From: Pseudomonas laurentiana
GTDB lineage: Bacteria > Pseudomonadota > Gammaproteobacteria > Pseudomonadales > Pseudomonadaceae
Assembly (NCBI RefSeq): GCF_014648275.1
Contig: NZ_BMQU01000018.1
Coordinates: forward strand, 1 to 64,000
Direction: 5' to 3'
Length of the DNA: 64,000 bases
The notes beneath the pieces are model-generated. The model ran no database searches and was not told where the DNA came from. It worked only from the letters and a program-made list of their open reading frames with translations. Both the position numbers and the translations under genes were made by a program. Shown here piece by piece: positions 6,076 through 21,590 of the stretch. The stretch's first letter is position 1. The number at the start of each line of letters is the position of its first letter.

Positions 6076-9000
6076 TTACACCTTTTCAATATTCACGAGA
6101 AACGCCTTGTACTCCGGCGTATGGGTATTCGACTCGCCGACACCCGGGGTCAGGGTGTTGGCCAGGAACCCCTTGCGTGTGCTGCCTTCGTAGCCCCAGT
6201 GGCAGGGGATGCCGATGGTGTCGACGTCCTGGCCGTCAATGGTCAGGCGGCGGATACGCTTGGTCACCACGGCCTTGGCCTTGATGTAACCGCGCTTGGT
6301 GCTGACCTTGACCGTATCGCCCTGAACGATGCCTTTGTCATTGGCCAGTCTTTCGCCGATTTCGATGAACTGCTCTGGTTGGACGATGGCATTCAGCCGT
6401 GAGTGTTTGGTCCAGTGACGGAACAGCTCGGTGATCGAGTAGGTGGTCGCCACGTAGGGGAACTCTTCACGGGTGCCCATGCGCTGGCGGTCGCTTTCGT
6501 ACAGCCGTGCCGTTGGGCTGTAGGTGACGTTGGGGTGCAGCGGGTTTTTCGCCAGCGGGCTTTCGGTCGGCTCGTAGTGTTCCGGGAACGGTCCGTCGTT
6601 CATGGCACCGACCGAAAAGAGTCGGCCAAGGCCTTCGGGCAGCATGATGAACGGGTTGGTGTTGCTGCCCGGTGCGGCGGTAACGGCAAAGTCCGGCACG
6701 TCGACACCGCTCCAGCGTGTGCCGTCCCAACCGATCAGTTTGCGCTTGGCATCCCAAGGGTTGCCCTGCGGGTCAGCCGAGGCACGGTTATAGAGGATGC
6801 GGCGGTTCTGCGGCCACGCCCAGGCCCAGCCGGGCGTGCAACCGAGGCCACTGTCGGCATTGTCCCGTCGGGCCATCTGGTTGCCTTGCTCGGTCCAGGA
6901 GCCGGCAAAGATCCAGTTGAAGCAACTGGTGCTGCCGTCGTCGCGCAACTGCGAGAAGTCGTTGAGTAACTGGCCCTTGCGCAGGATCAGGTTGCCTTGG
7001 TCATCGTGCAGGTCAGCAAGGGCGCGACCGTTGGACTCCTTTGCCACCTCTTCGGGTTTCGGGTCCAACGGGTCGGCATAGTCCCAGGCCATGTTGAGAA
7101 TCGGTGCCGGGTTGGCGCCGCCTTCCTTCTCGTACAGCTCGCGGATCTTGAGGAACAAGTGACCGAGAATCTTGCCGTCGTGCCAGGCTTCTCCGGGCGG
7201 TGCGGCACCGGCCCAGTGCCATTGCAACCAGCGTCCGGAGTTGACGATAGAGCCGTCTTCTTCGGCGAAGCAGGACGAGGGCAGGCGGAACACCTCGGTC
7301 TGGATCGAGGCGGTATCGACGTCATGCTGTTCGCCGTGGTTCTGCCAGAAACTTGAGGTTTCGGTGGCCAGCGGGTCGATGATTACCAGGAACTTCAGCT
7401 TGGCCAGGGCGGCCTGGGCCTTGTTCTTGTCCGGGAACGCCGCGACCGGGTTGAAGCCTTGGGCGATGTAGCCGTTGACCTTGCCTTCATACATGCGGTT
7501 GCTGAAGTTGAGCACGTCATAGCTGTCGTCCCACTTCGGCAACCAGTCAAAGCCCCAGCTGTTTTCCCGGGTCGCCTTGTCGCCCCAGAGGCTTTTCATC
7601 AGGCTGACGAAGAACTTCGGCGTGTGCTTGTAGTAGTTGACCTGATCAGGCAGCAGCGCCGTCGGGGTGATCTGCTTGAGGTAGGTGTCAAGGTCGGTTT
7701 GTGCGTCGGACGGCAGGTTCATGTAGCCGGGCAGGCGCAGCGAGAGCAGACCCAGGTCGGTGTAGCCCTGAATGTTGGAGTGGCCGCGCAAGGCGTTGAC
7801 CCCACCACCGGCCATGCCAATGTTGCCCAGCAGCAACTGGATCATGCCCGAACCACGGATCATCTGCGCGCCGTTGGTGTGGTGAGTCCAGCCCAGGGCG
7901 TAGAGGAAGGTAGCGGTCTTGTCCGGGGCGCTGGTCTCGCCGAGGATCGCGCAAATCTTCAGGAAATCATCCTTCGGTGTGCCGCAAACCGTGGTGACCA
8001 TCTCCGGGGTATAGCGGCTGACATGTGCCTTGAGCAGGTTCCATACGCACCGTGGGTGGCTCAGGGTCAGGTCGCGCTTGGCATAGCCCTGTGCGTCCAG
8101 TTCGTACGTCCAGGAACTGCGGTCGTAAGCCCGTTTCTGGGCGTCGTAGCCGCTGAACAGGCCATCGTCGAAGTGGTAGTCCTCGCGAACGATCAGGCTG
8201 GCGTTGGTGTAGGCGCGTACGTATTCATGCTGGATCTTGTCGTGGCTGATCAGGTAGTTGACCACCCCCATCAGGAAGGTCACGTCAGAGCCGGCGCGGA
8301 TCGGAGAATAGATGTCGGCCACCGCGGCGCTGCGGTTGAACCGTGGGTCGACCACGATGACCTTGGCGCCATTGCGGATCTTCGCCTCGATGACCCACTT
8401 GAAGCCTACCGGGTGTGCTTCGGCAGGGTTGCCCCCCATGATCAGCACCACGTTGGCGTTCTTGATATCGACCCAGTTGTTGGTCATTGCGCCACGGCCA
8501 AAGGTCGGCGCCAGGGCCGATACGGTCGGGGCGTGGCAGACCCGCGCCTGGCTGTCGGTGCCGAGGATGCCCAAGGCGCGGGTGAAGCGCTGATCCAGCG
8601 AGCCGGTTTCGCTGCTGGCCGCCGAGGAGCAGAGCATGCCGGTACTCAGCCAACGGTTGACCGTGGTGCCCTTGGCATTCTTCTCGATGAAGTTGGCGTC
8701 GCGGTCGTCCTTCATCAGGCGGGCGATGCGCTCGATGGCGTGTTCCCAGGTGATACGCTGCCATTTGTCCGAGCCCGGTGCGCGGTACTCGGGGTAGAGC
8801 AGGCGTTGTTCGCTGTGGATGTAGTCCACCAGCCCGGCCCCTTTCGGGCACAACGAGCCGCGGCTGACCGGGTGGTCCGGGTCGCCTTCGATGTGGAAAA
8901 TGCGGGCCTTGGCGTTTTTTGCGCCGTCACCCAGGCTGTACATGAGGACGCCGCAACCCACCGAGCAGTAGGTGCAGTTGTTGCGGGTTTCCTTGGCGCG

Positions 9001-9126
9001 CAGCAGCTTGTACTGCCGCGACTGGGTCGCTTGTGCTACGCCGGGGGCGAAGCCGAGGGTGGCACAAGTGGCGGTGGCAGCGCCGACGGTACAGAGCTTG
9101 AAGAACTGTCTTCTGCCAAGACCCAT
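6076..9126 (-). CDS. fdnG: formate dehydrogenase catalytic subunit, cysteine form
   Basis: A 1016-residue periplasmic molybdopterin (bis-MGD) enzyme oxidising formate to CO2. A twin-arginine signal (GRRQFFKL, residues 4-11) directs Tat export. Cys51, Cys54, Cys58 and Cys93 bind the N-terminal [4Fe-4S] cluster. The active-site stretch reads DSQARVCHAPTV: residue 197 is cysteine (TGC, codon at 8538-8536), where E. coli FdnG has selenocysteine encoded by TGA. The whole frame is therefore open without UGA recoding. The next residue, His, is kept as in active enzymes. AAGGAG precedes the ATG at good spacing. It is first in the operon fdnG-fdnH-fdnI-fdhE. Confidence 0.95.
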   Translation of the reverse strand: MGLGRRQFFKLCTVGAATATCATLGFAPGVAQATQSRQYKLLRAKETRNNCTYCSVGCGVLMYSLGDGAKNAKARIFHIEGDPDHPVSRGSLCPKGAGLVDYIHSEQRLLYPEYRAPGSDKWQRITWEHAIERIARLMKDDRDANFIEKNAKGTTVNRWLSTGMLCSSAASSETGSLDQRFTRALGILGTDSQARVCHAPTVSALAPTFGRGAMTNNWVDIKNANVVLIMGGNPAEAHPVGFKWVIEAKIRNGAKVIVVDPRFNRSAAVADIYSPIRAGSDVTFLMGVVNYLISHDKIQHEYVRAYTNASLIVREDYHFDDGLFSGYDAQKRAYDRSSWTYELDAQGYAKRDLTLSHPRCVWNLLKAHVSRYTPEMVTTVCGTPKDDFLKICAILGETSAPDKTATFLYALGWTHHTNGAQMIRGSGMIQLLLGNIGMAGGGVNALRGHSNIQGYTDLGLLSLRLPGYMNLPSDAQTDLDTYLKQITPTALLPDQVNYYKHTPKFFVSLMKSLWGDKATRENSWGFDWLPKWDDSYDVLNFSNRMYEGKVNGYIAQGFNPVAAFPDKNKAQAALAKLKFLVIIDPLATETSSFWQNHGEQHDVDTASIQTEVFRLPSSCFAEEDGSIVNSGRWLQWHWAGAAPPGEAWHDGKILGHLFLKIRELYEKEGGANPAPILNMAWDYADPLDPKPEEVAKESNGRALADLHDDQGNLILRKGQLLNDFSQLRDDGSTSCFNWIFAGSWTEQGNQMARRDNADSGLGCTPGWAWAWPQNRRILYNRASADPQGNPWDAKRKLIGWDGTRWSGVDVPDFAVTAAPGSNTNPFIMLPEGLGRLFSVGAMNDGPFPEHYEPTESPLAKNPLHPNVTYSPTARLYESDRQRMGTREEFPYVATTYSITELFRHWTKHSRLNAIVQPEQFIEIGERLANDKGIVQGDTVKVSTKRGYIKAKAVVTKRIRRLTIDGQDVDTIGIPCHWGYEGSTRKGFLANTLTPGVGESNTHTPEYKAFLVNIEKV

Positions 9127-9302: not shown

Positions 9303-9443
9303 ACTAATCGACCTTGTTGATGGCGCCATCGACGCTGTCTATCAGTGGCGAATGTGCAGGGCAGGCAGGAGGTTTTGACTGGCAGCCACTCTCTTCGGCG
9401 CCCGGGCAGTGATACAGTCGCGTTTTCTCAAAGAGGATGGACC

Positions 9444-9794
9444 ATGCGGGTAGTCATCGCGGTTGTTGCCGCAGCGTTGTTGGCGGGCTGTGCGTCCTCG
9501 ACGATGGATGAAGCACGAAGCAAGACACCGGGCAAAACGTTTTCTTCAGCCAAATCGGCGGACGTCGTTGCCCAGTGCATTCAGTTTTCCTGGCAGGACG
9601 AAGCGGTGTTCGGTGTCGATGCCAGTGGTTACCTGGAGCCTGGCAAACCGGGCAGCTTTACTGTCTACACCCGGGGTGCGGAGTCGTTTGCGGACATCCA
9701 GAGCCAGGGGGCGGCCTCCCGCGTCAACTACTACGCGGTGAAGCCTGACGCGGTTGCCCAGCGTCGCATGGCCGCCTTGGCCACCTGCCTCTGA
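9444..9794 (+). CDS. small lipoprotein of unknown function
   Basis: A 116-residue protein with a signal peptide ending in a clear lipobox (ALLAGC, cysteine at residue 15). The start at 9444 is preceded by AGAGG; an in-frame upstream ATG at 9345 would bury the signal peptide and is rejected. The mature part holds two further cysteines (near residues 51 and 115) that may form a disulfide. No domain is recognised. It ends six bases before the end of the convergent HTH-PAS gene. Confidence 0.75.
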   Translation: MRVVIAVVAAALLAGCASSTMDEARSKTPGKTFSSAKSADVVAQCIQFSWQDEAVFGVDASGYLEPGKPGSFTVYTRGAESFADIQSQGAASRVNYYAVKPDAVAQRRMAALATCL

Positions 9795-9800
9795 ACGGGC

Positions 9801-10883
9801 TCAGCGTGTTGCCGCCAACTGGGTTTCCAGGTCGGCAATCCGTGCCTGCAGGCGAGCCTGCTCTTCGCGCTGGGCACTGATGTCTTCGAACACACTGATC
9901 AGTTGTTCCGGCTCACCGTTCTGGCGGCGTTGCAGGGCGGTACGCGCCCGTACCCAGACATAATGCCCGTCGTGATGGCGCACGCGCTTTTCCACGACAT
10001 AGCGGTCGATCTCGCCGGCCAACAGGCGCTCTAGCAGTGCCAGGTTGGTCGCCAGGTCGTCGGGGTGGGTGAGTTGCTGGAAGGTCATGCCATAGAGCGC
10101 TTCGGCACGGTAGCCCAACAGCTCGCAGAAACTGCTGTTGACCCGCTTCCAGGTGCCGTCCAGATCAATGTAGGCGAGGGCGCCCCAGGCCAGCTCGAAG
10201 ATCGCCCGAAAGCGTTCTTCACTGTTGCGCAACGCTTCTTCGGCAACCTTGCGATCCGTGTTGTCCATGCTGATGCCGACCATCCTGATCGAGCGTCCGG
10301 CGCTGTCGCGGACCACCGTGGCACGGGACGAGATCCAACGCATCTCGCCGTCGGGTTGGTAGATACGGAAGTCACACTCGCAGCCCGTGCCTTCAGCCAC
10401 CGCCTGGGCGTACATGGCCTGCATGTTGAGGACATCCTCTTCGGGCAGGTGAACCCAGAAGTCCTCGTTGCGATTGACTTGCCAGCCGTAGACCACTTCG
10501 ACGTTGGGTGAATAGGTGACTTCGTCGCTGATCAGGTTCCATTCCCAGGTCACGATACGGGCGCCTTCCTGGGCCAGCTTCATGCGGGTTTCGCTTTCCA
10601 TGATCTCGGCGGTGTAGCGACGACGCAGATCGGTCATCGGCAGTTCGACTACCTGGGTGGTCTGCACATCCTGCAGCGCGTCCTCGCCGTAACGCAGCCA
10701 GATCCAGTTGACCTTGAGGAAGGCCGCCAGCTTGCGCAGGTTGTCGTAATCGATTTCACCGCCACGGGTCCATTTGTGTACCGCCGTACGCGAAATGCCC
10801 AATGCCGTACCCACCGCCTGCAAGGTGAGTTTGTGGTGCTCAAGCAATTCTTTCAGGCGAAACGCGAAGCTGTTTTCCATCAT
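9801..10883 (-). CDS. HTH-PAS-PAS one-component regulator
   Basis: A 360-residue cytoplasmic protein. Residues about 5-70 form an XRE/Cro-type helix-turn-helix (LTLQAVGTALGISRTAVHKWTRGG). Two PAS domains follow at about 95-215 and 220-340, the first ending VGISMDNTDRK and the second FEDISAQREEQ, typical of PAC motifs. A coiled coil closes the protein (about 335-358). There is no kinase, GGDEF or EAL output, so DNA binding is the likely output, with small-molecule or redox sensing by the PAS domains. It lies just downstream of cntB on the same strand with a hairpin between them. Whether it regulates the carnitine genes cannot be told. Confidence 0.75.
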   Translation of the reverse strand: MMENSFAFRLKELLEHHKLTLQAVGTALGISRTAVHKWTRGGEIDYDNLRKLAAFLKVNWIWLRYGEDALQDVQTTQVVELPMTDLRRRYTAEIMESETRMKLAQEGARIVTWEWNLISDEVTYSPNVEVVYGWQVNRNEDFWVHLPEEDVLNMQAMYAQAVAEGTGCECDFRIYQPDGEMRWISSRATVVRDSAGRSIRMVGISMDNTDRKVAEEALRNSEERFRAIFELAWGALAYIDLDGTWKRVNSSFCELLGYRAEALYGMTFQQLTHPDDLATNLALLERLLAGEIDRYVVEKRVRHHDGHYVWVRARTALQRRQNGEPEQLISVFEDISAQREEQARLQARIADLETQLAATR

Positions 10884-10988
10884 GCGCAGGGGTGTCCTGG
10901 TCAGGTACAGAGCCCGCAGTATACCTAAGCTGTCAACTTGAGGTTGACGGTGTGCGCCAGTGCCAGTCGCGGTGGGGGGCTTGCATCG

Positions 10989-11044: not shown

Positions 11045-12016
11045 TTACAGGTCCAGCACCAGGCGTGCCGATTTGGCCCGCGATACACAGACCATCAGGC
11101 TCTGCTGGGCGGCTTTTTCTTCATCGCTCAGGTACTGGTCGAAGTGCTCGGCCTCGCCGTCGATGATCCGCGTTTCGCAGGTACCGCATACGCCTTCGCG
11201 GCACAGGCACTCGACGTTGGCGGCCTTGGACTTCTGGATGGCCTGGAGGATGCTCATGCCTTCTTCCACCAGCAGCTCCTGACCGGAACGGGCCAGTACC
11301 ACGGTGAATGCCGCGCCGGTAACCGGGGTGGCGGCAAATTGTTCCCAATGCACGCGCTGCTCGGCGATCCCGGCCTTGGCGGCAGTGGCGATCACGGCAT
11401 CGATCAGAGGCTTGGGTCCGCAGACATAGAGGTGGGCGTCTTCCGCCAGGTCGGCGCAGAGTGCGACCAGGTCGAGTTTGCGCGCCAGGCTGTCAATGTA
11501 GAACCGGGTGCGCCCGGCATGGGGCCCGGCCGAAAGGTCATCCTGAAAGGCGCCGTGCTCTGGGCTGCGGAAGGCGTAGTGCAGTTCGTAGTCGGTGTCG
11601 CCACCTTCCAGTTCATGCAGTTGTGCCAGGAATGGTGTGATGCCGATACCGCCGGCAATCAGCACGTGGCGTCCGGCTGTCGGGTCCAGGGCGAACAGGT
11701 TGTTCGGGCTGGAGATGGTCAAGGTGCTGCCGACCTCGACCTGCTGGTGCATGAACGCCGAACCACCCTTGGACTGCTCTTCCAGGCGTACGCCGATCTG
11801 GTAGCTGCGGGTGTCGCGCGGGTCGCTCATCAGCGAGTAGGCATTGCTGAACTGGCTGCCGTCGGCACCCTGCATTTGTACGATGATGTGGCTACCACCG
11901 GTGAAGGCCGGCATCGCTGCGCCATCGTCGCGCGCCAGGGTGAAGCGCTTGATCAGTGGTGTTGCTTGTTCTACCGCGGTTACCCGCACGTTGAACATTT
12001 CATATGTGTTGGCCAT
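11045..12016 (-). CDS. cntB: carnitine monooxygenase reductase CntB
   Basis: A 323-residue flavin/iron-sulfur reductase of the phthalate dioxygenase reductase type, predicted to pass NAD(P)H electrons to the Rieske oxygenase CntA. The N-terminal flavin-binding barrel is at about 1-105, then the nucleotide-binding domain (VLIAGGIGITPFL near 118-130; YVCGPKPLID near 197-206). The C-terminal plant-type [2Fe-2S] domain has Cys272, Cys277, Cys280 and Cys310 (C-x4-C-x2-C-x29-C). Length matches E. coli YeaX (321). GAGGTG precedes the ATG. The C-terminal placement of the 2Fe-2S domain would also suit other Rieske partners, but the neighbouring cntA decides the call. Confidence 0.88.
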   Translation of the reverse strand: MANTYEMFNVRVTAVEQATPLIKRFTLARDDGAAMPAFTGGSHIIVQMQGADGSQFSNAYSLMSDPRDTRSYQIGVRLEEQSKGGSAFMHQQVEVGSTLTISSPNNLFALDPTAGRHVLIAGGIGITPFLAQLHELEGGDTDYELHYAFRSPEHGAFQDDLSAGPHAGRTRFYIDSLARKLDLVALCADLAEDAHLYVCGPKPLIDAVIATAAKAGIAEQRVHWEQFAATPVTGAAFTVVLARSGQELLVEEGMSILQAIQKSKAANVECLCREGVCGTCETRIIDGEAEHFDQYLSDEEKAAQQSLMVCVSRAKSARLVLDL

Positions 12017-12078
12017 GGTTCACCTCGACTGCAGCAACGCGCGGCAGGCCCTGCCGCACGCTGTAACTCAATGCCCGG

Positions 12079-13527
12079 TTAAACGGCCAGGCACAGGTAC
12101 TTGATTTCCAGATAATCCTCGATGCCGTACTTCGAGCCTTCGCGGCCCAGGCCGGATTGCTTGACCCCGCCAAAGGGGGCGACTTCGTTGGAGATCAGCC
12201 CGGTATTGACCCCGACCATGCCGTACTCCAGGCGTTCGGCCACCTTGAAGACCCGCGCCAGGTCGCGGCTGTAGAAGTACGCCGCCAGGCCATACAGGGT
12301 GTCATTGGCCAGGGTGATGACTTCGTCATCACTGGAAAAACGCACCAGTGCTGCCACCGGGCCGAAGATTTCCTCGTCCAGCAGCTCCATGCCCGGGCCG
12401 ATGTTGGCCAGCACGGTCGGCTCGAAGAAGTTTCCGCCCAGGGCATGGGCCTTGCCACCAAGCACTACCTCGGCGCCTTTGCTCACCGCGTCGTCGATCA
12501 GGCTCTGGACCTTGGCCACCGCCTTGTCGCTGATCAGCGGGCCGACCTGCGTGCCTTCGCTTTGGCCATGGCCGACGCCCAGGGCGCGCACGCGCTCGAC
12601 GAAGCGTTCGGTGAATTGCGCATACACACGGTCATGCACATAGAAGCGGTTCACGCAGACGCAGGTTTGCCCGGCGTTGCGGTACTTGGCGATCAGGGCA
12701 CCTTCCACGGCGGCATCGATGTCGGCATCTTCAAACACAATGAACGGCGCGTTGCCGCCCAGTTCGAGTGACACCTTCTTGATGGTTTCGGCGCATTGGC
12801 CCATCAGCAGGCGACCAACCGGGGTCGAACCGGTGAAGCTGAGCTTGCGCACGGACGGGTGACCGGTCAGTTGCGCGCCGATGGCTGGCGCATCACCGGT
12901 GACCACGCTGAACACACCCGCCGGTACGCCCGCACGCTCGGCCAGTTCGGCCAGGGCCAAAGCCGAGAAGGGGGTTTCGTTGGCCGGCTTGACCACGATG
13001 GTGCAGCCTGCAGCCAGTGCCGGGGCGACTTTGCGCGTGATCATCGCCGCCGGGAAGTTCCACGGGGTGATGGCGGCACAGACACCGATGCCTTGCTTGA
13101 TCACCAGCAGACGCTTGTCGCTGGCCGGGCTTGGAATGACGTCGCCATAGACGCGTTTGCCTTCCTCGGCGAACCACTCGACAAACGAGGCCGCGTAGCG
13201 AATTTCACCCAGGGCTTCGTGCAGCGGCTTGCCTTGTTCCAGAGTCATCAACCGGGCCAGGTCTTGCTCATGCTCGAGCAATAGCTCGAACCAGCGGCGC
13301 AGCACCTGTGCGCGGTCCTTGGCGGTGCGTCCGCGCCAGCCGTCCAGTGCGGCTTCAGCGGCTTCGATGGCCCGCACCGCTTCGGCGCCGCCCATCAGCG
13401 GTACATGGCCGAGCACGTTGCCATTGGCCGGATCAGTCACGGCCAGGTGGCGACCGTCATCGGCCTCGCACCAGGCGCCAGCGATATAGGCTTGCTGGCG
13501 GAACAGTTTGGAATCGTTAAGTTTCAC
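12079..13527 (-). CDS. GabD-like aldehyde dehydrogenase, predicted malic semialdehyde dehydrogenase
   Basis: An NAD(P)-dependent aldehyde dehydrogenase of 482 residues, the same length as E. coli succinate semialdehyde dehydrogenase GabD. I prefer the GTG at 13527 (MKLNDSKLFRQQ, aligning with GabD) with GGAG eight bases upstream, over the GTG at 13536. Catalytic residues: Asn157 (PWNFPA), Glu255 (LELGG) and Cys289 in GQTCVC, followed by Cys291 as in the GabD redox pair. It sits between cntA and cntB, so I infer oxidation of malic semialdehyde, the carbon product of carnitine cleavage, to malate. Activity on succinate semialdehyde cannot be excluded. Confidence 0.85.
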   Translation of the reverse strand: MKLNDSKLFRQQAYIAGAWCEADDGRHLAVTDPANGNVLGHVPLMGGAEAVRAIEAAEAALDGWRGRTAKDRAQVLRRWFELLLEHEQDLARLMTLEQGKPLHEALGEIRYAASFVEWFAEEGKRVYGDVIPSPASDKRLLVIKQGIGVCAAITPWNFPAAMITRKVAPALAAGCTIVVKPANETPFSALALAELAERAGVPAGVFSVVTGDAPAIGAQLTGHPSVRKLSFTGSTPVGRLLMGQCAETIKKVSLELGGNAPFIVFEDADIDAAVEGALIAKYRNAGQTCVCVNRFYVHDRVYAQFTERFVERVRALGVGHGQSEGTQVGPLISDKAVAKVQSLIDDAVSKGAEVVLGGKAHALGGNFFEPTVLANIGPGMELLDEEIFGPVAALVRFSSDDEVITLANDTLYGLAAYFYSRDLARVFKVAERLEYGMVGVNTGLISNEVAPFGGVKQSGLGREGSKYGIEDYLEIKYLCLAV

Positions 13528-13578
13528 GCAAGGCACTCCGTATACCGCCGCCGACCCGTAGGCCGGCGGCTGGCAGGG

Positions 13579-14700
13579 TCAGTCGTTGATATGGGCGACG
13601 GCGATCAGGTTGTGGAAGTGGGCAATGCCGTGCTCGCTCATGCCGCTGCGCTGACGGTCGGCCATGATCCGGCCCTGGCCACGGTAGCCACGGGACTTCA
13701 GGCCCTTCTGCACGCTTTCCACCAGACGCAGGTCTTCAGGGCGGAACACTTCGCGGTACCAGTCGATCAGCTTCTGCTGCTCTTCGGTGATGTCCTTGTT
13801 CAGGAAGTAGATGTCGTAATGCTGCAGCGTGGTCTCGGCATCGACCGGGAACTCATAGATCACGGTCATGAAGTTCGCGCCTGGCGGTACGTTGAACATG
13901 GTGCATGGCCAGGTCCAGAAACCGGCGAAGGATGGGTCTTTCACCGACTCATCGAACGTGAAGGACTGCTCCGAGGGTTTGGCCAGGCCGTACTGCAAGG
14001 TCCAGTTACCAAAGGTGGTATGGGTGTACTGGCCCACGTCTACCGAATCGGCGAAGCCTGGGTGGGCCGGCGCGCAGTGGTAGCACTCCAGGTAGTTGTC
14101 GACGATCGACTTCCAGTTGGCCGGGGTGTCGCTGACGAAGCGGGCGGCCAGGTGCAAGTCATCGATCACTGCACAGGCTTGACGCATGCGCGCTTCCAGG
14201 CCCGGCAGCTGTTCTTCAACGGTGCCGGCCTCCATGTCCATGTTGATGAAGATGAAGCCGGCGTATTCCTCGACGCGCAACTGCACCAGGGTGGAGTTTT
14301 CCTTGTCGAAGTTCACCACGTTTTCGCAGTTACGGGCATGGGCCAGCTCGCCATCGAGCTTGAAGGTCCAGGCGTGGTAAGGGCAGGTGATGACGTTCTT
14401 GGCCTTGCCGCTGCCACTGAGCAGCTGATGACCACGGTGTGGGCAGACGTTGTAGAAGGCGCGCAGCACGCTGTCACGACCACGAACAACGATGATGCTT
14501 TCGCCGATCACTTCACGGGTGATGTAAGCGTTGTTCTCGGCGACTTCACTGCGGTGGCCTACACAGATCCAGCTATGGGCGAAGATCGCTTCTTTCTCAT
14601 GTTCAAACACCGATTGCTGGGTGTAGAAATTCGCCGGAATGGTAAAGGCTTCATCGGCGTTGCTGCAGAAGTCGGCGGGCAGACGTTTGAAATCATTCAT
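13579..14700 (-). CDS. cntA: carnitine monooxygenase oxygenase subunit CntA
   Basis: A 373-residue Rieske non-heme iron oxygenase predicted to hydroxylate L-carnitine at C4, releasing trimethylamine and malic semialdehyde. The Rieske cluster ligands are Cys86, His88, Cys106 and His109. The mononuclear iron ligands are His208, His213 and Asp323. The residue bridging the two centres is Glu205 (NYLECYHC), where most Rieske oxygenases have Asp; Glu205 and Asp323 coincide in numbering with Acinetobacter CntA. Length fits CntA/YeaW (371-374), whereas glycine betaine monooxygenase GbcA is longer. The context (BCCT transporter, D-malate dehydrogenase, CntB) agrees. It has its own promoter region after a terminator. 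Confidence 0.92.
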   Translation of the reverse strand: MNDFKRLPADFCSNADEAFTIPANFYTQQSVFEHEKEAIFAHSWICVGHRSEVAENNAYITREVIGESIIVVRGRDSVLRAFYNVCPHRGHQLLSGSGKAKNVITCPYHAWTFKLDGELAHARNCENVVNFDKENSTLVQLRVEEYAGFIFINMDMEAGTVEEQLPGLEARMRQACAVIDDLHLAARFVSDTPANWKSIVDNYLECYHCAPAHPGFADSVDVGQYTHTTFGNWTLQYGLAKPSEQSFTFDESVKDPSFAGFWTWPCTMFNVPPGANFMTVIYEFPVDAETTLQHYDIYFLNKDITEEQQKLIDWYREVFRPEDLRLVESVQKGLKSRGYRGQGRIMADRQRSGMSEHGIAHFHNLIAVAHIND

Positions 14701-14751
14701 GGTGTTTTCCTCTTACAGGCACGGACGCGTCAGCGGCGTACTTTTTACTTA

Positions 14752-14778
14752 TTGGTTAACGAGTATCTGTTGGTTAAC
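14752..14778 (-). promoter_or_regulatory. GTTAAC-N12-GTTAAC operator-like element upstream of cntA
   Basis: Two TTGGTTAAC copies (14752-14760 and 14770-14778) are spaced 18 bases start to start, 50-80 bases upstream of cntA and just after the transporter's terminator. The GTTAAC pair with a 12-base spacer recurs upstream of the BCCT gene at 16535-16558, with 7 of 12 spacer bases shared, suggesting one regulator for both units. Confidence 0.6.
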
Positions 14779-14787
14779 AGCCTGGGC

Positions 14788-14829
14788 AAAAAAATAGCCT
14801 GCCGCCTCGATCCCTGAGGGCGAGCAGAC
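14788..14829 (-). terminator. rho-independent terminator after the BCCT transporter
   Basis: Read on the minus strand: GTCTGC-T-CGCC-C-TC pairs with GA-GGCG-GCAGGC around a short loop, followed by TATTTTTTT. It lies 12 bases past the transporter stop and separates its transcript from that of cntA. Confidence 0.8.
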
Positions 14830-14840
14830 AGTTGCCGTGG

Positions 14841-16445
14841 TTATGGCGTTGCGACTGCCGCAGGCGCTGGGGCTTTTTCTTCAGGTGATTCGCCTGCCAG
14901 TCGTGCTGCTTCTTCTTCGATGCGGTACGCCGGCACGTGGCTGTAGTCCTGAAGCATCCATTTGAAGAAGCCGTAGATCTTCACCAGCAGGATCAGCATG
15001 AAAGGGATCGCAGTGAGCACGACGGCGGTTTTCATGGTCGACAGCGAGGCCTTGGCGAACAGCATGGCCAGTGGCACCAGGGTCAACACCAGGCACCAGA
15101 ACAGACGGTGAGTTGGCGTTGGGTCTTCACCTTCGCGCAGGTTCGGGGTACTGGTGGCCGCGACGGCATAGGCGGCGGCGTCCATGTGCGAGGCGCAGAA
15201 CACGGCCATGATGAACAGGTACACGGCGAGGAATACCTTGCCCAGCGGCAGGGCGGTCAGCAGCGCACTCACCGCGCTTTCACCACCTTGTTCCGTGAGG
15301 ATCTTCGGTACGTCAATGGCGCCTGTGATGAACTGGTGCATGCTGTAGCTTTCCAGTGCGCCGAAGAAGAACCAGCACCCGAAGCTGCCACCCAGCAGCA
15401 GGGCGAAGACCACTTCCTTGATCTGCCGACCACGGGAAACGCGGGTCACGAACATGGCCACGCCCGGAGCGTAGGACACCCACCACAACCAGTAGAACAC
15501 CGTCCAGTTGCGGGTGAAGGCACCGTCACCGGCAGGGTCGGTGAACAGGCTCATGTGCACGTAGTTCTGAATCATGACGCCGACGGCATTGGCCGTGTTG
15601 TTGATGGTGAACTGCGTTGGGCCGACCAGCAGTACCACCCCGGCAAACACCAGCGCACCGATGCAGACCATCTTGCTCAGGCGCTGCAGGCCGCCGTCGA
15701 TACCGATGTAGGAACTGAGCGAGAACAGCACCGCCACGCCACCGATCACCATCAGTTGCACGGTAAAGGTGTTGGGCGTGCCCGCCAGGTCAGACAGGCC
15801 ACGGGTCAGGGTCGAGGCGGTCAGGGCCAGGGATACGGTCAGTGCGCCCATCATGGTCAGCAGGAAGATCAGGTCCACGGTGCGGCCGACCGGGCCGGTG
15901 GCCTTGAAGCCGGTTACCGCTTCAACGATCGAGGCCAGGTTCAGGCCGCTCTTCTTGCGGACATGGAAGTGGTAGGCCATGGCCAGGGAGGCCAGCGCGT
16001 AGATCGACCAGGCGCTGATGCCCCAGTGGAAGAACGAGTAGCTGACGCTGTATTCCAGTGCCTGGCGCGACTGCGGAACGATGTTCAAGCCCGGCGTCTG
16101 GTAGTAGTAGGCCCATTCCATGACGCCCCAGTAGAGGGTCGAAGAGCCCATGCCGGCGCAGATGAACATGAACACCCACGTGGTCGTGGAGTATTCCGGT
16201 TTACCACTGCCGAAGCGGATGTTGCCGTACTTGCTGAATGCCAGGTACAGCACCGCCAGAGAGCTGATGAACACCAGCAACTGCACGCTGGTACCGAAGG
16301 TGCGGGTAGAAAACTCGAACAACTGGTTGGCCGTGGTTTCGGCCTGGGTGGGGAACAAGGCTAACCCGATGACAGTGAGCAGCACGGCTATAAGGCTCAC
16401 GGTAATCAGAAACACATCAATCTTTTTATTTTTGTGGGACATCAT
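14841..16445 (-). CDS. BCCT-family transporter, predicted carnitine/betaine uptake
   Basis: A 534-residue betaine/carnitine/choline transporter with about 12 membrane helices and a charged, proline-rich C-terminus. The family signature [17 protein letters not shown] is followed by [10 protein letters not shown]. The segment [12 protein letters not shown] resembles the CaiT/YeaV branch. At the position of CaiT Met331, which allows sodium-free antiport, this protein has Val, as in ion-coupled BetP, so ion-driven import seems more likely than exchange. Its place matches E. coli yeaV, between D-malate dehydrogenase and the Rieske oxygenase. It has a separate promoter and terminator. Carnitine as substrate is inferred from context. 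Confidence 0.85.
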
Positions 16446-16523
16446 CGTCTCCTGGACGTTGGCGTACGTAGTGCTTGGCCCGGTGCAAGTCCGGGGTACT
16501 GCGGTACCTCTACTCTCCTTGTC

Positions 16524-16558
16524 GTTAACCGAAAGTTAACATGAATCTTTCGGTTAAC
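16524..16558 (-). promoter_or_regulatory. 12-bp inverted repeat with embedded GTTAAC pair upstream of the BCCT gene
   Basis: GTTAACCGAAAG (16524-16535) and its exact reverse complement CTTTCGGTTAAC (16547-16558) flank an 11-base centre containing another GTTAAC (16535-16540). The 18-base-spaced GTTAAC pair (16535 and 16553) is the same arrangement as upstream of cntA. It lies 80-115 bases before the transporter start, a suitable place for an activator or repressor. Confidence 0.65.
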
Positions 16559-16636
16559 AGTTTGCATAGAATCGTCGTGGACTGCAAGCACGCGAAAGCC
16601 GGTTGTCGGACAATCCTGACAACCGGCCCTGGGTGA

Positions 16637-17728
16637 TCAGGCCCCGATCAGTTCGGCGATGGCCTTGCCAACCTGTTGGGTGGACGCGCTGCCGCCCATG
16701 TCGCGGGTGGTGTCACCGTCGGCGATGACCTGTTCGATGGCCTTGAGGATGTCGTCGTGTGCAGCGCGATAGCGCCGGTCGGCACCGTCGTTGCCGAGGA
16801 ATTCCAGCATCAGTGCACCGGACCAGATCATGGCGATCGGGTTGGCGATGTTCTGCCCGAAGATGTCTGGCGCCGAACCGTGTACCGGCTCGAACAGTGA
16901 CGGGAACGTGCGCTCCGGGTTGAGGTTGGCCGACGGCGCGATACCGATGGTGCCGGCACAGGCCGGGCCCAGGTCGGAGAGAATGTCGCCGAACAGGTTA
17001 GAGGCTACGACCACGTCGAAGCGCTCGGGTTGCAGTACGAAGCGTGCACAGAGGATGTCGATGTGCTGCTTGTCCCAACTCACCTCGGGGTAGTGCGCAG
17101 CCATGGCGGCGGTGCGCTCGTCCCAGTACGGCATGCTGACCGCCATGCCATTGGATTTGGTCGCCGAAGTCAGGTGCTTGCGCTCGCGGGTCTGGGCCAG
17201 GTCGAAGGCGTACTTGAGGATACGGTCGACGCCACGGCGGGTGAACACCGACTCCTGCAGGACGAACTCATTCTCGGTGCCTTCGAACATCCGTCCACCC
17301 AGCGACGAGTATTCGCCTTCGGTGTTTTCGCGGATCACCACGAAGTCGATATCGCCTGGCTGGCGTCCGGCCAGCGGGCACGGCACGCCAGGGAACAGGC
17401 GAACCGGGCGGATGTTCACGTACTGGTCGAAGTCGCGGCGGAACTTGAGCAGCGAACCCCACAGGGAAATATGGTCCGGTACTTTGTCCGGCCAGCCGAC
17501 CGCGCCGAAGTACAGTGCATCGAACCCTTTGAGCTGCTCGAACCAGTCGTCCGGCATCATCTTGCCGTGGGCCAGGTAGTAATCGCAGCTGGCCCACTCG
17601 AAGAATTCGAACTCAAGGTTCAGGCCGTGTTTTCGCGCAGCCGCCTCGACCACACGAATACCTTCTGGGAGAACTTCGTTACCGATGCCATCGCCAGGGA
17701 TTGCGGCGATACGGAATGTCTTGCTCAT
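16637..17728 (-). CDS. dmlA: D-malate dehydrogenase (tartrate dehydrogenase family)
   Basis: A 363-residue NAD-dependent decarboxylating dehydrogenase of the isocitrate/isopropylmalate superfamily, predicted to turn D-malate into pyruvate and CO2. Motifs: IPGDGIGNEV at the N-terminus, VIRENTEGEYSSLGGR mid-protein, and the metal/substrate segment VVASNLFGDILSDLGPA. Length equals E. coli DmlA (361). I take the ATG at 17728 over the GTG at 17737. Family members also accept tartrate or isopropylmalate. It sits next to a divergent LysR regulator, as in E. coli dmlR-dmlA, and beside the cnt genes, which should generate D-malate from L-carnitine. Confidence 0.88.
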   Translation of the reverse strand: MSKTFRIAAIPGDGIGNEVLPEGIRVVEAAARKHGLNLEFEFFEWASCDYYLAHGKMMPDDWFEQLKGFDALYFGAVGWPDKVPDHISLWGSLLKFRRDFDQYVNIRPVRLFPGVPCPLAGRQPGDIDFVVIRENTEGEYSSLGGRMFEGTENEFVLQESVFTRRGVDRILKYAFDLAQTRERKHLTSATKSNGMAVSMPYWDERTAAMAAHYPEVSWDKQHIDILCARFVLQPERFDVVVASNLFGDILSDLGPACAGTIGIAPSANLNPERTFPSLFEPVHGSAPDIFGQNIANPIAMIWSGALMLEFLGNDGADRRYRAAHDDILKAIEQVIADGDTTRDMGGSASTQQVGKAIAELIGA

Positions 17729-17787
17729 GGGGGGCACACTCGTTGTCTAGGGAACAGGTGCGGACCATGCTATAAGGGCTGTGTTCA

Positions 17788-17798
17788 GAGATAATCTC
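17788..17798. promoter_or_regulatory. palindrome in the dmlA/LysR divergent promoter
   Basis: GAGAT-A-ATCTC is a perfect 11-base palindrome in the 99-base gap between the divergent dmlA and lysR starts, 30 bases before the regulator gene. Dyads of this size at this place are typical LysR-type binding sites. Confidence 0.45.
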
Positions 17799-17827
17799 GT
17801 CAATCATGGATTCTTAGTGCACGTATC

Positions 17828-18739
17828 GTGAATAATATGCCCAGCCTTGAAGACCTGACGATTTTTGTCCAGGTCGCCAAACGTGCCAGCTTTGCGGCGG
17901 TTGCCGATGAGTTGGGAATGTCAGCCGCGTTCATCAGCAAGCGCATTCGCGTGCTTGAACAAAACCTGGGCGTGCGCTTGCTGCACCGCACCACCCGGCG
18001 CGTGTCGGTGAGCGAAGAGGGCGAGCGCGTGTACCGGTGGGCACTGCATATCTTTGACGCGGTGCAGCGTATGGGGGACGACATCAGTGCCCAGCACCGT
18101 GAGCCGGTAGGGCAGCTGCGTATTGCCAGCAGCCTGGGGCTGGGCAGGCGCTTCGTTGCCCCGGCCTTGTCGGAGCTGGCCGAACGTTACCCGAAGCTGG
18201 ATATCCGTCTGGACGTGCATGACCGGCTGGTTGACTTGATCGATGAAGGGGTCGACCTGGATATCCGCGTGGGCAACACCATCGCCCCCAACCTGATCGC
18301 CAAACCGCTGGCGAAGAACCGCCGTGTGCTCTGTGCCTCCCCAGACTACCTTGAGCGCTGTGGCACCCCCCGGACCCTGGCGGAGTTGGCCAGCCATGAC
18401 TGCCTGGTGATCAAGGAGCGCGACCACCCGTTCGGGATCTGGCAACTGGAAGGCCAGCAGGGCGAGGAGAGCGTGCGTGTGACCGGTACATTGTCGACCA
18501 ACCATGGTGAAGTGGCCCACCAGTGGTGCCTGGATGGTCGGGGGATACTGCTGCGCTCCTGGTGGGACCTGCACGACAGCCTGGCGGCAGGGCGGTTGGT
18601 GCAGGTGCTGAGCGACTACCATCAGCCCGCAGATATCTGGGCGGTGTATGCCTCGCCACTGGCCAGTTCGGCGAAGGTTCGCGTTGCGGTGGAGTTTTTC
18701 CGTCAATACTTTGCCGAACGCTACACCTTGCCTGCGTAG
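17828..18739 (+). CDS. dmlR: LysR-family regulator, DmlR-like
   Basis: A 303-residue transcription factor. An N-terminal winged helix-turn-helix (residues 5-65, with ASFAAVADELGMSAAFISKRIRVLE) is followed by a type 2 periplasmic-binding-like effector domain. It is transcribed away from dmlA, the usual arrangement for a LysR factor controlling its neighbour. By analogy with E. coli DmlR it should activate dmlA when a C4 hydroxyacid is present; the ligand is inferred. The GTG at 17828 or the ATG at 17837 may be the start, and neither has a strong ribosome binding site. Confidence 0.8.
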   Translation: MNNMPSLEDLTIFVQVAKRASFAAVADELGMSAAFISKRIRVLEQNLGVRLLHRTTRRVSVSEEGERVYRWALHIFDAVQRMGDDISAQHREPVGQLRIASSLGLGRRFVAPALSELAERYPKLDIRLDVHDRLVDLIDEGVDLDIRVGNTIAPNLIAKPLAKNRRVLCASPDYLERCGTPRTLAELASHDCLVIKERDHPFGIWQLEGQQGEESVRVTGTLSTNHGEVAHQWCLDGRGILLRSWWDLHDSLAAGRLVQVLSDYHQPADIWAVYASPLASSAKVRVAVEFFRQYFAERYTLPA

Positions 18740-18797: not shown

Positions 18798-19820
18798 CTA
18801 TCGACGCCGTAGCAGGGCGATGAAGAACACTCCGCCAATCGCTGCCGTGGCGATGCCGATGGGCAAGTCTTGCGGTGCGATCAGTGTACGGGCGGCGACG
18901 TCCACCCAGACCAGAAACAAACCGCCGAGCAAGGCGCTGACCGGCAACAGTCGCCGGTGTTCGGCGCCCACCAGACGCCGGGCCAGGTGGGGCAGCATCA
19001 AGCCGACAAAGCCAATCGCCCCGGACAACGCTACCAGCACCCCGGTCAGCAATGCGGTGCAGACGAACACCTGCACGCGCACGGCCTGGACATTGAACCC
19101 CAGGCTCACTGCCGTGTGTTCTCCGCTCATCAATGCGTTCAAACCACGGGCCAGAGCCAACAAGGCGAGCAGGCCGAGTAGCAGGCACAAGGCCGGTAAC
19201 CAGAGTATCTCCCAGCGCGCCAGGCCAAGCCCGCCGAGCATCCAGAACATCACCGAATTGCTGGCGTGTTGGTCGCCGGTGTACAGCAGCAGGTTGACCA
19301 GTGCCATCAGCACGAACGACACCGCCACCCCAGCCAGCAATAACCGTTCGCTGCTCAACCGGCCTTGTTGATTGGCCACCGCCAGCACCAGGGTCATGCT
19401 GCCCAAGGCACCGATGAAGGCGGCCAGGGGCAGGCTGAACACCCCGGCAAAATCGCCGAGGAACAGCACCACCAGCACGGCGCCCAGCGCCGCACCGGAA
19501 CTGACGCCAAGCAGGTGCGGGTCGGCCAGCGGGTTGCGGGTCACGGCCTGCAGGGCGGTGCCGACCAGGGCCAGGCCCGCGCCAACCAGTGCGCCCAGTA
19601 ACACCCGTGGCGCACGAATCAACCAGACGATGCGCGACTGGCCCTGTGTCCAGTCACCGCCACTGCGTAACCCCAACTGCTCGCCAACAATTCCCCAGAC
19701 GTTCGACACGGGCACGCTCGCCGGGCCAAAGGCCAACGCCGTCATGCACGACACCAGCAGCACGCCCAGTAATCCAAGCACCAACAGGCGGTACGCCGCC
19801 ACGCTACGGATCGGCATCAC
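18798..19820 (-). CDS. FecCD/BtuC-type ABC transporter permease
   Basis: A 340-residue inner-membrane permease with about nine or ten helices, of the family importing cobalamin, heme and ferric siderophores. Typical blocks are visible: RAPRVLLGALVGAGLALVG with GTALQAVTRNPLADPHLLG, and near the end GFVGLMLPHLARRLVG followed by LIAPQDLPIGIATAAIGG. It overlaps the binding-protein gene by four bases and is last in a receptor-ATPase-binding protein-permease operon. The riboswitch upstream of the operon points to a corrinoid or related cargo. Confidence 0.9.
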   Translation of the reverse strand: MMPIRSVAAYRLLVLGLLGVLLVSCMTALAFGPASVPVSNVWGIVGEQLGLRSGGDWTQGQSRIVWLIRAPRVLLGALVGAGLALVGTALQAVTRNPLADPHLLGVSSGAALGAVLVVLFLGDFAGVFSLPLAAFIGALGSMTLVLAVANQQGRLSSERLLLAGVAVSFVLMALVNLLLYTGDQHASNSVMFWMLGGLGLARWEILWLPALCLLLGLLALLALARGLNALMSGEHTAVSLGFNVQAVRVQVFVCTALLTGVLVALSGAIGFVGLMLPHLARRLVGAEHRRLLPVSALLGGLFLVWVDVAARTLIAPQDLPIGIATAAIGGVFFIALLRRR

Positions 19821-20788
19821 TGACCTGCCTGCGCCAGGGGCTGTGGATGCAGGGCATTGGCGATGGTTTCGATGGCCTCGGCGTTGTCCACGGACGGTGT
19901 CACTGCCACATAAGGCAGCACGATAAAGCGCTGCTCGCGGATTGCACGCACGCCCTGTAGCGCCGGGTGCTGCAGCAGGAAATCACGCTTCTGTTGCCAG
20001 GTGCGTGGGCCGTAGTCGACGATCAGGATGACCTCGGGGTCGCGCTCGACCACACTTTCCCAGTTGACCTGGGTCCAACTGGCGGCGATATCGTCCATGA
20101 CGTTGTGGCCACCCGCCGTCGTCAACAGCGCTTGCGGTATACCGAGTCGTCCAGAGGTCATGGGGCGGTCTTCGCCGCTGTCATAGAGGAATACGCGCGG
20201 TGTTTCGTGTGTTGCCGCCAGCCTCGTCTGAACCCGGGCGATACGTTGGCGCAGGGTGTTGATCAACGTTTCGGCGCGGGCTTCGACCGAGAAAATCCGC
20301 CCGAGATTGGCCAGGTCGCGGTACAGGTCGTCAAGGCTGGCCTCGCGTTGCGGCATGATCCGCGAGCAGGACTCGCTCAGTTCATAGACCTTGATCCCCA
20401 GCGGCTCCAGGCTGGCCGGGGTGACCGGGCCGCCAATCCGCATGCCATAGCCCCAGCCGGCGAAAAAAAAGTCGGCGCCCGCGTTCAGCAGGTTCTCTTC
20501 GCTGGCGTAGTGGCTGGCGAGCTCTGGCACACCGTCGAGGGCCGTGCTGAGTTTCGGGTCAAGGGTTTTCCAGCCGCTGATGCCGGTGTAGCCGACCATA
20601 TGTTCGCGCAGGCCGAGGGCAAGCAACATTCCGGTCAGGTTGATGTCGTGGCTGACCACATGCTGTGGCGCCTGTTCGAACGTGACCTGGCGGTTGCAAC
20701 TCTGCACACCAAGCGGGTAGGTGCTGGCATGGGTCGAGAGGGCCGGCAGCAGCGCAAGCCAGGCCAGGTAGGGACGTTGTCGTTTCAT
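19817..20788 (-). CDS. periplasmic binding protein of the BtuF/FepB class
   Basis: A 323-residue protein with a signal peptide (residues 1-22, cleaved after STHA) and two lobes joined by a long helix (about residues 160-200), the class III fold. Early lobe: VVSHDINLTGMLLALGLREHMVGYTG. Late lobe: DPEVILIVDYG. It should deliver cargo to the permease encoded just downstream (four-base overlap) and starts within the end of the ATPase gene (four-base overlap). Relatives in pseudomonads are often annotated as F420-0 transporters, a label carried over from actinobacteria that I do not adopt. Confidence 0.85.
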   Translation of the reverse strand: MKRQRPYLAWLALLPALSTHASTYPLGVQSCNRQVTFEQAPQHVVSHDINLTGMLLALGLREHMVGYTGISGWKTLDPKLSTALDGVPELASHYASEENLLNAGADFFFAGWGYGMRIGGPVTPASLEPLGIKVYELSESCSRIMPQREASLDDLYRDLANLGRIFSVEARAETLINTLRQRIARVQTRLAATHETPRVFLYDSGEDRPMTSGRLGIPQALLTTAGGHNVMDDIAASWTQVNWESVVERDPEVILIVDYGPRTWQQKRDFLLQHPALQGVRAIREQRFIVLPYVAVTPSVDNAEAIETIANALHPQPLAQAGQ

Positions 20789-21570
20789 GGTTCGGTGATC
20801 CAGGTAATGCGCGGGTAGCCGGCCAGTGGGTGAGTGTCGACCAGTGCGTGCACACCGAACACCTGATGCAGGCGCTCGGCAGTCAGCACTTCAGCGGGTG
20901 TCCCGCTGGCGACAAGGCAGCCGTTGTCGATGACGTAGAGGCGGTCGCAGAATGCCGCAGCCAGGTTCAGGTCGTGGAAACTGGCCAGGGTGCTCAAACC
21001 CAGGCGGCGCAAGTGGCCCAGTAGTTCCAGTTGGTAGCGAGGGTCGAGGTGGTTGGTCGGTTCGTCGAGTATCAGCAGGCGGGGTTGCTGCACCAATGCA
21101 CGGGCCAGCAGCACGCGCTGCTTCTCGCCGCCGGACAGGGTGGCGAAATCATGCTGATGAACGTCCCCCAGGCCAACGGCGTCGAGGGTCTGCTCGATCA
21201 ACTGGCGGTCTGCCTCGTTGTCGCCGGCAAACATCCCCTGGTGGGGCGTGCGGCCCATGGCCACGACATCGGCCACGGTGAGGCCGAAGGCTTGAGGAAA
21301 TTCCTGCAGGACCACGGCGATGCGTTGCGCACTCCAGCGCGGACGTTGCTGCCAAAGGTCATTGCCGTCCAGGCTGACCTGACCGGCCAAGGGTGGGTTG
21401 AAGCGGTAGGCACAGCGCAACAGGCTGGTCTTGCCACTGCCATTGGGACCGATCAGGCCGACGAACTCACCGGCGGCCACGTGCAGGTCGATGCCGTTCA
21501 GCAACCAGTGCTGACGACGCTCGAGTGCTGTCGGCGTCCAGCGCAGTTGGTGGATAGTCAATGCGGTCAT
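20785..21570 (-). CDS. ABC transporter ATP-binding protein (BtuD/FecE type)
   Basis: A 261-residue ATPase energising the adjacent permease. Walker A GPNGSGKTS (near residue 47), Q-loop VLQEFPQAFG, signature LSGGEKQR, Walker B LLILDEPTNHLD and the H-loop SFHDLNLA are all intact. I chose the ATG at 21570 (MTALTIHQ): the longer frame to 21645 runs back into the receptor gene and has no family support. It follows the receptor stop by 20 bases. Confidence 0.9.
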   Translation of the reverse strand: MTALTIHQLRWTPTALERRQHWLLNGIDLHVAAGEFVGLIGPNGSGKTSLLRCAYRFNPPLAGQVSLDGNDLWQQRPRWSAQRIAVVLQEFPQAFGLTVADVVAMGRTPHQGMFAGDNEADRQLIEQTLDAVGLGDVHQHDFATLSGGEKQRVLLARALVQQPRLLILDEPTNHLDPRYQLELLGHLRRLGLSTLASFHDLNLAAAFCDRLYVIDNGCLVASGTPAEVLTAERLHQVFGVHALVDTHPLAGYPRITWITEP

Positions 21571-21590
21571 GATCGGCGGTTCCTTGTGCC

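Follow-up and report, generated by a model that had tools for sequence, protein, structure and literature searches.

The window analysed here, 64,000 nucleotides of DNA from Pseudomonas laurentiana, contains a six-gene cluster that very probably directs the conversion of L-carnitine to pyruvate and, next to it, a gene for a helix-turn-helix (HTH)-PAS-PAS protein, hereafter pas, which we predict to encode a second regulator of the locus. Six open reading frames (ORFs) were confirmed between 11045 and 18739, with the order, strands and family matches that a preliminary description of this DNA had given: cntB, msadh, cntA, bcct and mdh lie on the minus strand and lysR is divergent from mdh. The lysR gene (17828..18739, plus strand) is CarR/DmlR-like and scores 353.6 bits against the TtdR model NF007315, under the cut-off of 398. 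A candidate LysR box, TTCACGATACGTG (17820..17832), lies at its start codon; it is a TTCAYG-N3-CGTG-like dyad, and LysR would bind there. The product of mdh (16637..17728, minus) is assigned as a decarboxylating D-malate dehydrogenase of the DmlA/TtuC type (TIGR02089, 567.2 bits, cut-off 470.4); its start was placed at ATG 17728 in preference to GTG 17737, the ATG being kept across 25 aligned gaps. The bcct gene (14841..16445, minus) encodes a carnitine/choline transporter of the YeaV/Aci01347 type (NF007412, 906.1 bits, cut-off 647). The oxygenase subunit of carnitine monooxygenase, of Rieske group Va, is encoded by cntA (13579..14700, minus; E 3.9e-199 to 6y8j), malic semialdehyde dehydrogenase (MSA-DH) by msadh (12079..13536, minus), and the flavin/NAD, plant-type [2Fe-2S] reductase subunit by cntB (11045..12016, minus), with FAD_binding_6, NAD_binding_1 and Fer2 domains. 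The six genes had been presented as a complete set, which overlooked the adjacent and conserved pas gene (9801..10883, minus), which follows cntB in the same orientation.

The minus-strand genes are widely spaced, with 191 bases between mdh and bcct and 140 between bcct and cntA. A terminator-like hairpin with a weak T run follows mdh (16592..16636, minus; -23.9 kcal/mol, z -4.3, none of 200 shuffles equally stable), and a stem-loop followed by seven T, a possible terminator, lies after bcct (14776..14842, minus; z -1.1, 30 of 200 shuffles equally stable), where the T run is conserved in the alignment of Pseudomonadaceae gaps. A scan for sigma-70 promoters and terminators gave matches no more frequent than in shuffled sequence, and the hairpins were judged by folding and alignment. 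In A. nosocomialis, by contrast, mdh, bcct, hyd and cntA are almost contiguous, 11-42 bases apart. Because of the hairpins and the wide gaps, we infer that mdh, bcct and cntA-msadh-cntB form separate transcription units.

The pas protein has 360 residues, with an XRE-type HTH followed by two PAS stretches; the HTH_3 domain (PF01381) and both PAS_3 stretches exceed their cut-offs. Its AlphaFold model (mean predicted local distance difference test score, pLDDT, 86.9) has a wholly helical domain at the N terminus and, joined by long helices, two alpha/beta domains that resemble PAS, although the placement of the domains is uncertain given a predicted TM-score (pTM) of 0.48. Strong conservation among 27 chosen and aligned pas proteins extends over the HTH and the first PAS domain but not the second. 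The HTH-PAS proteins of loci L071 and L267 are extended at the C terminus by about 90 residues (454 and 457 amino acids, stop included). A literature search of open-licence papers, mostly at the level of title and abstract, found none linking this HTH-PAS gene to carnitine and none reporting such a CntA cluster in Pseudomonas.

The presence of pas follows that of CntA closely. CntA (E <= 1e-80) was found in 35 of the 399 same-genus genomes drawn, and pas (E <= 1e-70) in exactly the same 35, five of the matches covering 61-76% of the protein (G278, G093, G333, G359 and G321). The co-occurrence holds even where the two are unlinked: pas lies outside the fetched cluster stretch in 13 of these 35 genomes and away from the cluster in ten, contig ends leaving the distance open in the other three (G226, G089 and G157). 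CntA was present in 21 of 148 genomes drawn from the family (P. laurentiana being counted in both draws), and pas (E <= 1e-40) in 18, that is in 18 of the 21 CntA-positive and 0 of the 127 CntA-negative genomes. When the 19 genomes behind named CntA-positive loci were searched whole, pas was recovered from 7 and not from 12; three loci, L048, L059 and L070, probably belong to the genomes drawn as G170, G911 and G824, respectively. A class-wide draw (369 genomes in each search) was too sparse to inform on co-occurrence, yielding, besides the P. laurentiana genome, one genome with CntA-like matches (40-41% identity), two with HTH-PAS-like matches (40-43%) and none with both. The position of pas differs by lineage: it is found 3' of cntB in some, while in Cupriavidus it follows lysR with the same orientation and in L080 it separates mdh from bcct. 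In 8 of the 35 loci from the genus, cntA is accompanied by pas although the lysR-mdh unit that normally precedes it is missing, which points to a tendency of pas to go with cntA and of lysR to go with mdh.

Alignment of the gaps of 25 Pseudomonadaceae clusters revealed TTCACG-N3-CGTG between lysR and mdh, a sequence also found in Acinetobacter and, slightly altered, in Serratia and E. coli, which is likely the LysR box. In the same alignment, half sites of the GTTAAC type appeared in the pas promoter and in both gaps flanking bcct, the one towards mdh and the one towards cntA. In the window, the predicted HTH-PAS operators 5' of bcct (16524..16558) comprise a tandem GTTAAC-N12-GTTAAC (16535-16558) and an exact dyad GTTAAC-N5-GTTAAC (16524-16540), and a motif scan placed a further tandem GTTAAC-N12-GTTAAC 5' of cntA (14755..14778). 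The pas promoter (10918..10948) consists of the exact dyad GTCAAC-N5-GTTGAC (10932-10948) followed by TATACT (10918-10923), so that the dyad covers the -35 position. The 17-bp dyad GTYAAC-N5-GTTRAC has two exact occurrences in the window, with starts 65 bases ahead of pas and 95 ahead of bcct, and GTHAAC-N12-GTTAAC only upstream of bcct (16535) and cntA (14755). Neither exact pattern recurs in 1,258,880 scanned bases of the P. laurentiana genome (1.25 Mb distinct out of 5.2 Mb, one stretch overlapping the window by 4 kb). If up to two mismatches are allowed, the window contains 10 dyad matches where 4.5 were expected, and an isolated weak match therefore carries little weight.

We then scored clusters for a site with up to two mismatches in the 250 bases preceding bcct or cntA. 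In Pseudomonadaceae such a site was found in 52 of 52 clusters with pas in the genome and in 0 of 3 without (two of which are nearly alike), although these counts are not independent of the motif definition, because it was in alignments from this family that the motif was first noticed; the site preceded mdh in 0 of 43 clusters. Among 47 loci outside the family, where pas promoters were also in view before the count, the site was present in 17 of 19 with a linked pas and 3 of 28 without, or in 8 of 19 versus 0 of 28 at one mismatch. Absence here means no pas in the fetched stretch (11 of the 28 genomes were searched whole and none had it), and the 28 are not independent because 19 of them are Acinetobacter; upstream of bcct or cntA, none of these 19 Acinetobacter loci has a GTTAAC-type site within two mismatches. 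For comparison, 300 permuted motifs, a control covering the outside-family loci, matched on average 0.55 and at most 5 of the 19 with pas. The 6-mers that best discriminate outside-family loci with pas from those without are GGTTAA (16 versus 2), AGTTAA (17 versus 4) and GTTAAC (15 versus 2). All 13 unlinked pas genes have a site directly upstream with at most one mismatch, exact in 10, and 18 of 38 linked pas genes pass at two mismatches.

Taken together, these observations suggest a carnitine-to-pyruvate locus under split control, an explanation which as a whole we hold with good confidence. The LysR activator would work at the lysR-mdh gap and control the oxidation of D-malate. The HTH-PAS-PAS protein, in turn, would bind sites of the GTTAAC-N5-GTTAAC type in the pas promoter and ahead of both bcct and cntA, and thereby govern uptake and cleavage; that it regulates bcct and cntA through the predicted sites is probable. 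Binding, ligand and sign of control are all inferred. A repressor is somewhat favoured over an activator, because the dyad covers the -35 region of the pas promoter; repression could be lifted by a ligand of the PAS domain, perhaps carnitine or a pathway product. More broadly, and with rather less assurance than for the control of bcct and cntA itself, we think it fairly likely that such a protein is dedicated to regulating carnitine monooxygenase, a role not described before, in Pseudomonas, Aeromonas and several beta-proteobacteria, where it would bind dyads before bcct, cntA and pas, sense carnitine or a breakdown product via the conserved first PAS domain and time the release of trimethylamine. 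The new element is a candidate regulator that co-occurs with CntA in the genus and for which a DNA motif is specified. If the prediction is right, loss of pas would alter the expression of bcct and cntA and leave that of mdh unchanged, and pas and its sites would serve as a marker of the way in which environmental bacteria may control their release of trimethylamine.

Several observations weigh against this assignment. Three CntA-positive Pseudomonadaceae have no pas (G824, G885 and G904, two of them nearly alike), and the 12 genomes behind named loci in which a whole search found none comprise four Acinetobacter, three Aquitalea, two Serratia, one P. alcaligenes and two Neisseriaceae. The site was missed in 2 of the 19 outside-family loci with pas (L084 and L089) and in 20 of 38 linked pas promoters, and it is present at two mismatches before bcct in three of the 28 loci without pas (L077, L092 and L111). 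Nine one-mismatch dyad matches occur elsewhere in the scanned part of the genome, one of them between two ORFs (L271). Furthermore, the loci are related and their counts are not independent, and the hairpin after bcct, with its z of -1.1, is not unusually stable.

The main alternative is that LysR alone controls a single operon, as in A. baumannii, and that pas is a hitch-hiker with an unrelated function. A. baumannii CarR is reported, in the introduction of PMC11353897, to bind the gap between carR and the operon in response to L-carnitine, and the LysR box is conserved here as well as in clusters without pas. The preliminary description likewise named a LysR regulator, and lysR is indeed divergent from mdh, with a conserved box in the gap between them. 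As sole regulator, however, LysR is unlikely, because pas tracks CntA, even where unlinked, and the predicted sites precede bcct and cntA rather than mdh. A single operon also sits poorly with the hairpin-containing gaps described above, which are far wider than those of A. nosocomialis, and with the eight genus loci that have cntA and pas and no lysR-mdh in front. We therefore regard this alternative as unlikely.

An equally unlikely possibility is that a different regulator binds the GTTAAC sites and that the HTH-PAS protein is merely one of its targets. Binding by the HTH-PAS protein is drawn from co-occurrence alone, and the sites do precede pas itself, a feature that autoregulation would also explain. 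Yet the GTTAAC sites track the presence of pas across families, and a 17-bp dyad suits a dimer of the XRE type.

The chemistry over which this control would be exerted is already known, and the Pseudomonas host is a new member. Using genes of the A. baumannii operon, in vitro and in E. coli, Piskol et al. (2024) reported the conversion of L-carnitine to trimethylamine and malic semialdehyde, then to D-malate and pyruvate (PMC11353897); the carnitine cluster was also described in an Acinetobacter pan-genome study (PMC9162365). The pathway proposed as the headline of the preliminary description is well supported by homology without being new chemistry, the enzymes being known, and its argument that C3 of (R)-carnitine becomes that of (R)-malate, hence D-malate, is correct and already in print, where the product is explained by the untouched stereocentre (PMC11353897). 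By analogy with the steps demonstrated for the A. baumannii homologues, BCCT would import L-carnitine, CntA/CntB would use NADH and O2 to cleave it into trimethylamine and (R)-malic semialdehyde, MSA-DH would oxidise the latter to D-malate, and MDH would release pyruvate and CO2 by decarboxylation. We hold this pathway assignment with high confidence.

The aldehyde dehydrogenase exceeds the cut-off of the succinate semialdehyde dehydrogenase (SSADH) model TIGR01780 (719.8 versus 646.35 bits) and narrowly misses that of the GabD model NF008415 (814.5 versus 828), so automatic annotation would name it succinate semialdehyde dehydrogenase. It possesses every residue named for A. baumannii MSA-DH, the numbering being transferred via the A. 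nosocomialis enzyme of L102: catalytic Cys292 and Glu258, and substrate-binding Arg168, Arg286 and Ser449. These are common to MSA-DH and SSADH (PMC11353897) and hence not diagnostic. The cofactor residue Asn184 (Asn186 in the window), reported to confer tolerance of NAD and NADP (PMC11353897), is Asn in 13 of 13 chosen cluster enzymes and in 0 of 13 GabD proteins, a comparison that left out 4 of the 17 GabD-type enzymes of our tree. In this tree, 29 chosen cluster enzymes, including five from Acinetobacter (A. baumannii not among them), lie on one side of a branch supported by a Shimodaira-Hasegawa-like approximate likelihood ratio (SH-aLRT) of 98, opposite the 17 GabD-type enzymes; a long-branched GabD-type enzyme, L194, adjoins the cluster clade. 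On this tree position an ordinary GabD was rejected: the GabD-like dehydrogenase of the preliminary description, which would form D-malate, groups with the Acinetobacter cluster enzymes and apart from GabD. In L152 and L153 (G321 and G359), which lack msadh, the gene directly 3' of cntB encodes another aldehyde dehydrogenase (36% identity), possibly a replacement.

Piskol et al. propose that clusters lacking msadh and/or mdh serve for carnitine trimming (PMC11353897). That CntAB here mainly trims intracellular carnitine kept as a compatible solute, rather than supporting growth on carnitine, is nonetheless improbable: the window cluster has both genes and thus falls outside the kind covered by that proposal.

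CntA aligns with the A. baumannii carnitine monooxygenase (6y8j) across residues 3-370; the best named relative is Pseudomonas defluvii WCHP16 (L035; CntA 99%). With residue roles taken from PMC7948474 and PMC10952381, the Rieske ligands Cys86, His88, Cys106 and His109, the iron triad His208, His213 and Asp323 and the bridging Glu205 are present in the window protein and in all 136 aligned rows, some genomes being counted twice; the positions given earlier for Glu205 and Asp323 are therefore borne out. Position 203 is Tyr in 135 rows and Phe in one, and Cys206 and Cys209 occur in all 136. The pocket residues named for carnitine (Tyr203, Tyr225, Phe258, Asn270, Tyr295, Tyr315 and Phe319) are all identical in the window CntA, which is predicted to cleave carnitine to trimethylamine. 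Even though A. baumannii CntA also accepts gamma-butyrobetaine (PMC7948474) and medium activity toward glycine betaine is cited in PMC9508527, a main substrate other than carnitine, such as these or choline, is very improbable given the identical pocket and MSA-DH and MDH enzymes that fit the carnitine product. In Paraburkholderia/Burkholderia loci (L082 and L084-L086), a second, distant CntA-like ORF (26-32%) lies upstream of the cluster on the opposite strand.

The cluster had been likened to E. coli dmlR-dmlA-yeaV-yeaW-yeaX with an aldehyde dehydrogenase added. The order of the five orthologues is indeed equal, at identities of 62% (LysR with DmlR), 79% (MDH with DmlA), 62%, 73% and 59% (CntB with YeaX), and the 13-kb annotated E. 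coli stretch, to which the search was confined, contains no msadh and no HTH-PAS gene. Three E. coli strains were reported unable to grow on carnitine (PMC11353897), and cntA matches were found in 4326 of 5426 genomes of this species (annotated yeaW in the five matches listed). Acinetobacter is nevertheless the closer match, all six genes having already been described there: the A. baumannii operon, carR / mdh-bcct-hyd-cntA-msadh-cntB, shares with the window all six genes, their order and orientation and the D-malate route (PMC11353897). The LysR box region is likewise shared, as seen in Acinetobacter species other than A. baumannii, and the LysR proteins of the Acinetobacter clusters are 43-47% identical to that of the window. 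The A. baumannii operon differs in carrying hyd, for an acylcarnitine hydrolase, between bcct and cntA, where the window has none, and pas, present in the window, was not found in the four Acinetobacter genomes searched. On the Psychrobacter plasmid pP32BP2, a divergent LysR gene also precedes a five-gene carnitine (CAR) module that includes a malate dehydrogenase; this module is plasmid-borne, and in the text available to us the LysR gene alone is named as putative regulator (PMC6514802).

The complete six-gene set is found in 12 of the 35 CntA-positive genomes of the genus, as well as in 13 of the 21 of the family and, for the 583 named loci, in 51 of the 80 best. Another 14 of the 35 have the five-gene, E. 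coli-like set without msadh. A CntA tree of 104 rows, with many weak forks and 39 of 95 inner branches open, implies no fewer than 13 changes in the presence of msadh. As the cluster enzymes form one clade, msadh has probably been lost repeatedly elsewhere, which appears likelier than repeated gain and than an addition to the E. coli arrangement. Such repeated absence within one genus provides natural pairs for comparing growth on carnitine with mere cleavage.

The textbook carnitine route in Pseudomonas is that of carnitine dehydrogenase (cdh), which also uses L-carnitine but first oxidises its hydroxyl to give 3-dehydrocarnitine (PMC2131755). The contrast drawn earlier between this route and the cluster applies to P. 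laurentiana, in whose genome no carnitine dehydrogenase was detected (NF005716, best matches about 97 bits), but not to the genus: at E <= 1e-100, a threshold used because 0 of 55 genomes reached the NF005716 cut-off, a match was present in 29 of the 35 CntA-positive genomes and in 16 of 20 CntA-negative ones, the first 20 listed. Replacement of carnitine dehydrogenase by CntA across the genus is rejected, 29 of the 35 having both. The match in L120 sits between a short thioesterase-like ORF and one read by eye as a beta-keto acid cleavage enzyme.

Other genes were also noted, the GcvT-like protein, the formate dehydrogenase-like ORF and the iron-uptake-like set being named by eye. Elsewhere in the P. 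laurentiana genome, a PF11927 heme-dependent N-demethylase gene (C3:45186-46007, L249) lies between genes for a CntB-like reductase and a GcvT-like protein, probably a dimethylamine monooxygenase set, and a second PF11927 match occurs at C1:75577; some of the methylamine nitrogen may be available to the strain. Within the window, a small lipoprotein-like ORF (9345-9794) is convergent with pas, and what appears by eye to be the same gene stands beside the unlinked pas of L156. Further along, an ORF resembling a formate dehydrogenase alpha subunit (6076-9126) has Cys at a position where E. coli FdnG has selenocysteine. On the other side, adjoining lysR (18798-23732), is an iron-uptake-like set with a FecCD-type permease, a substrate-binding protein, an ABC ATPase and a TonB-dependent receptor.

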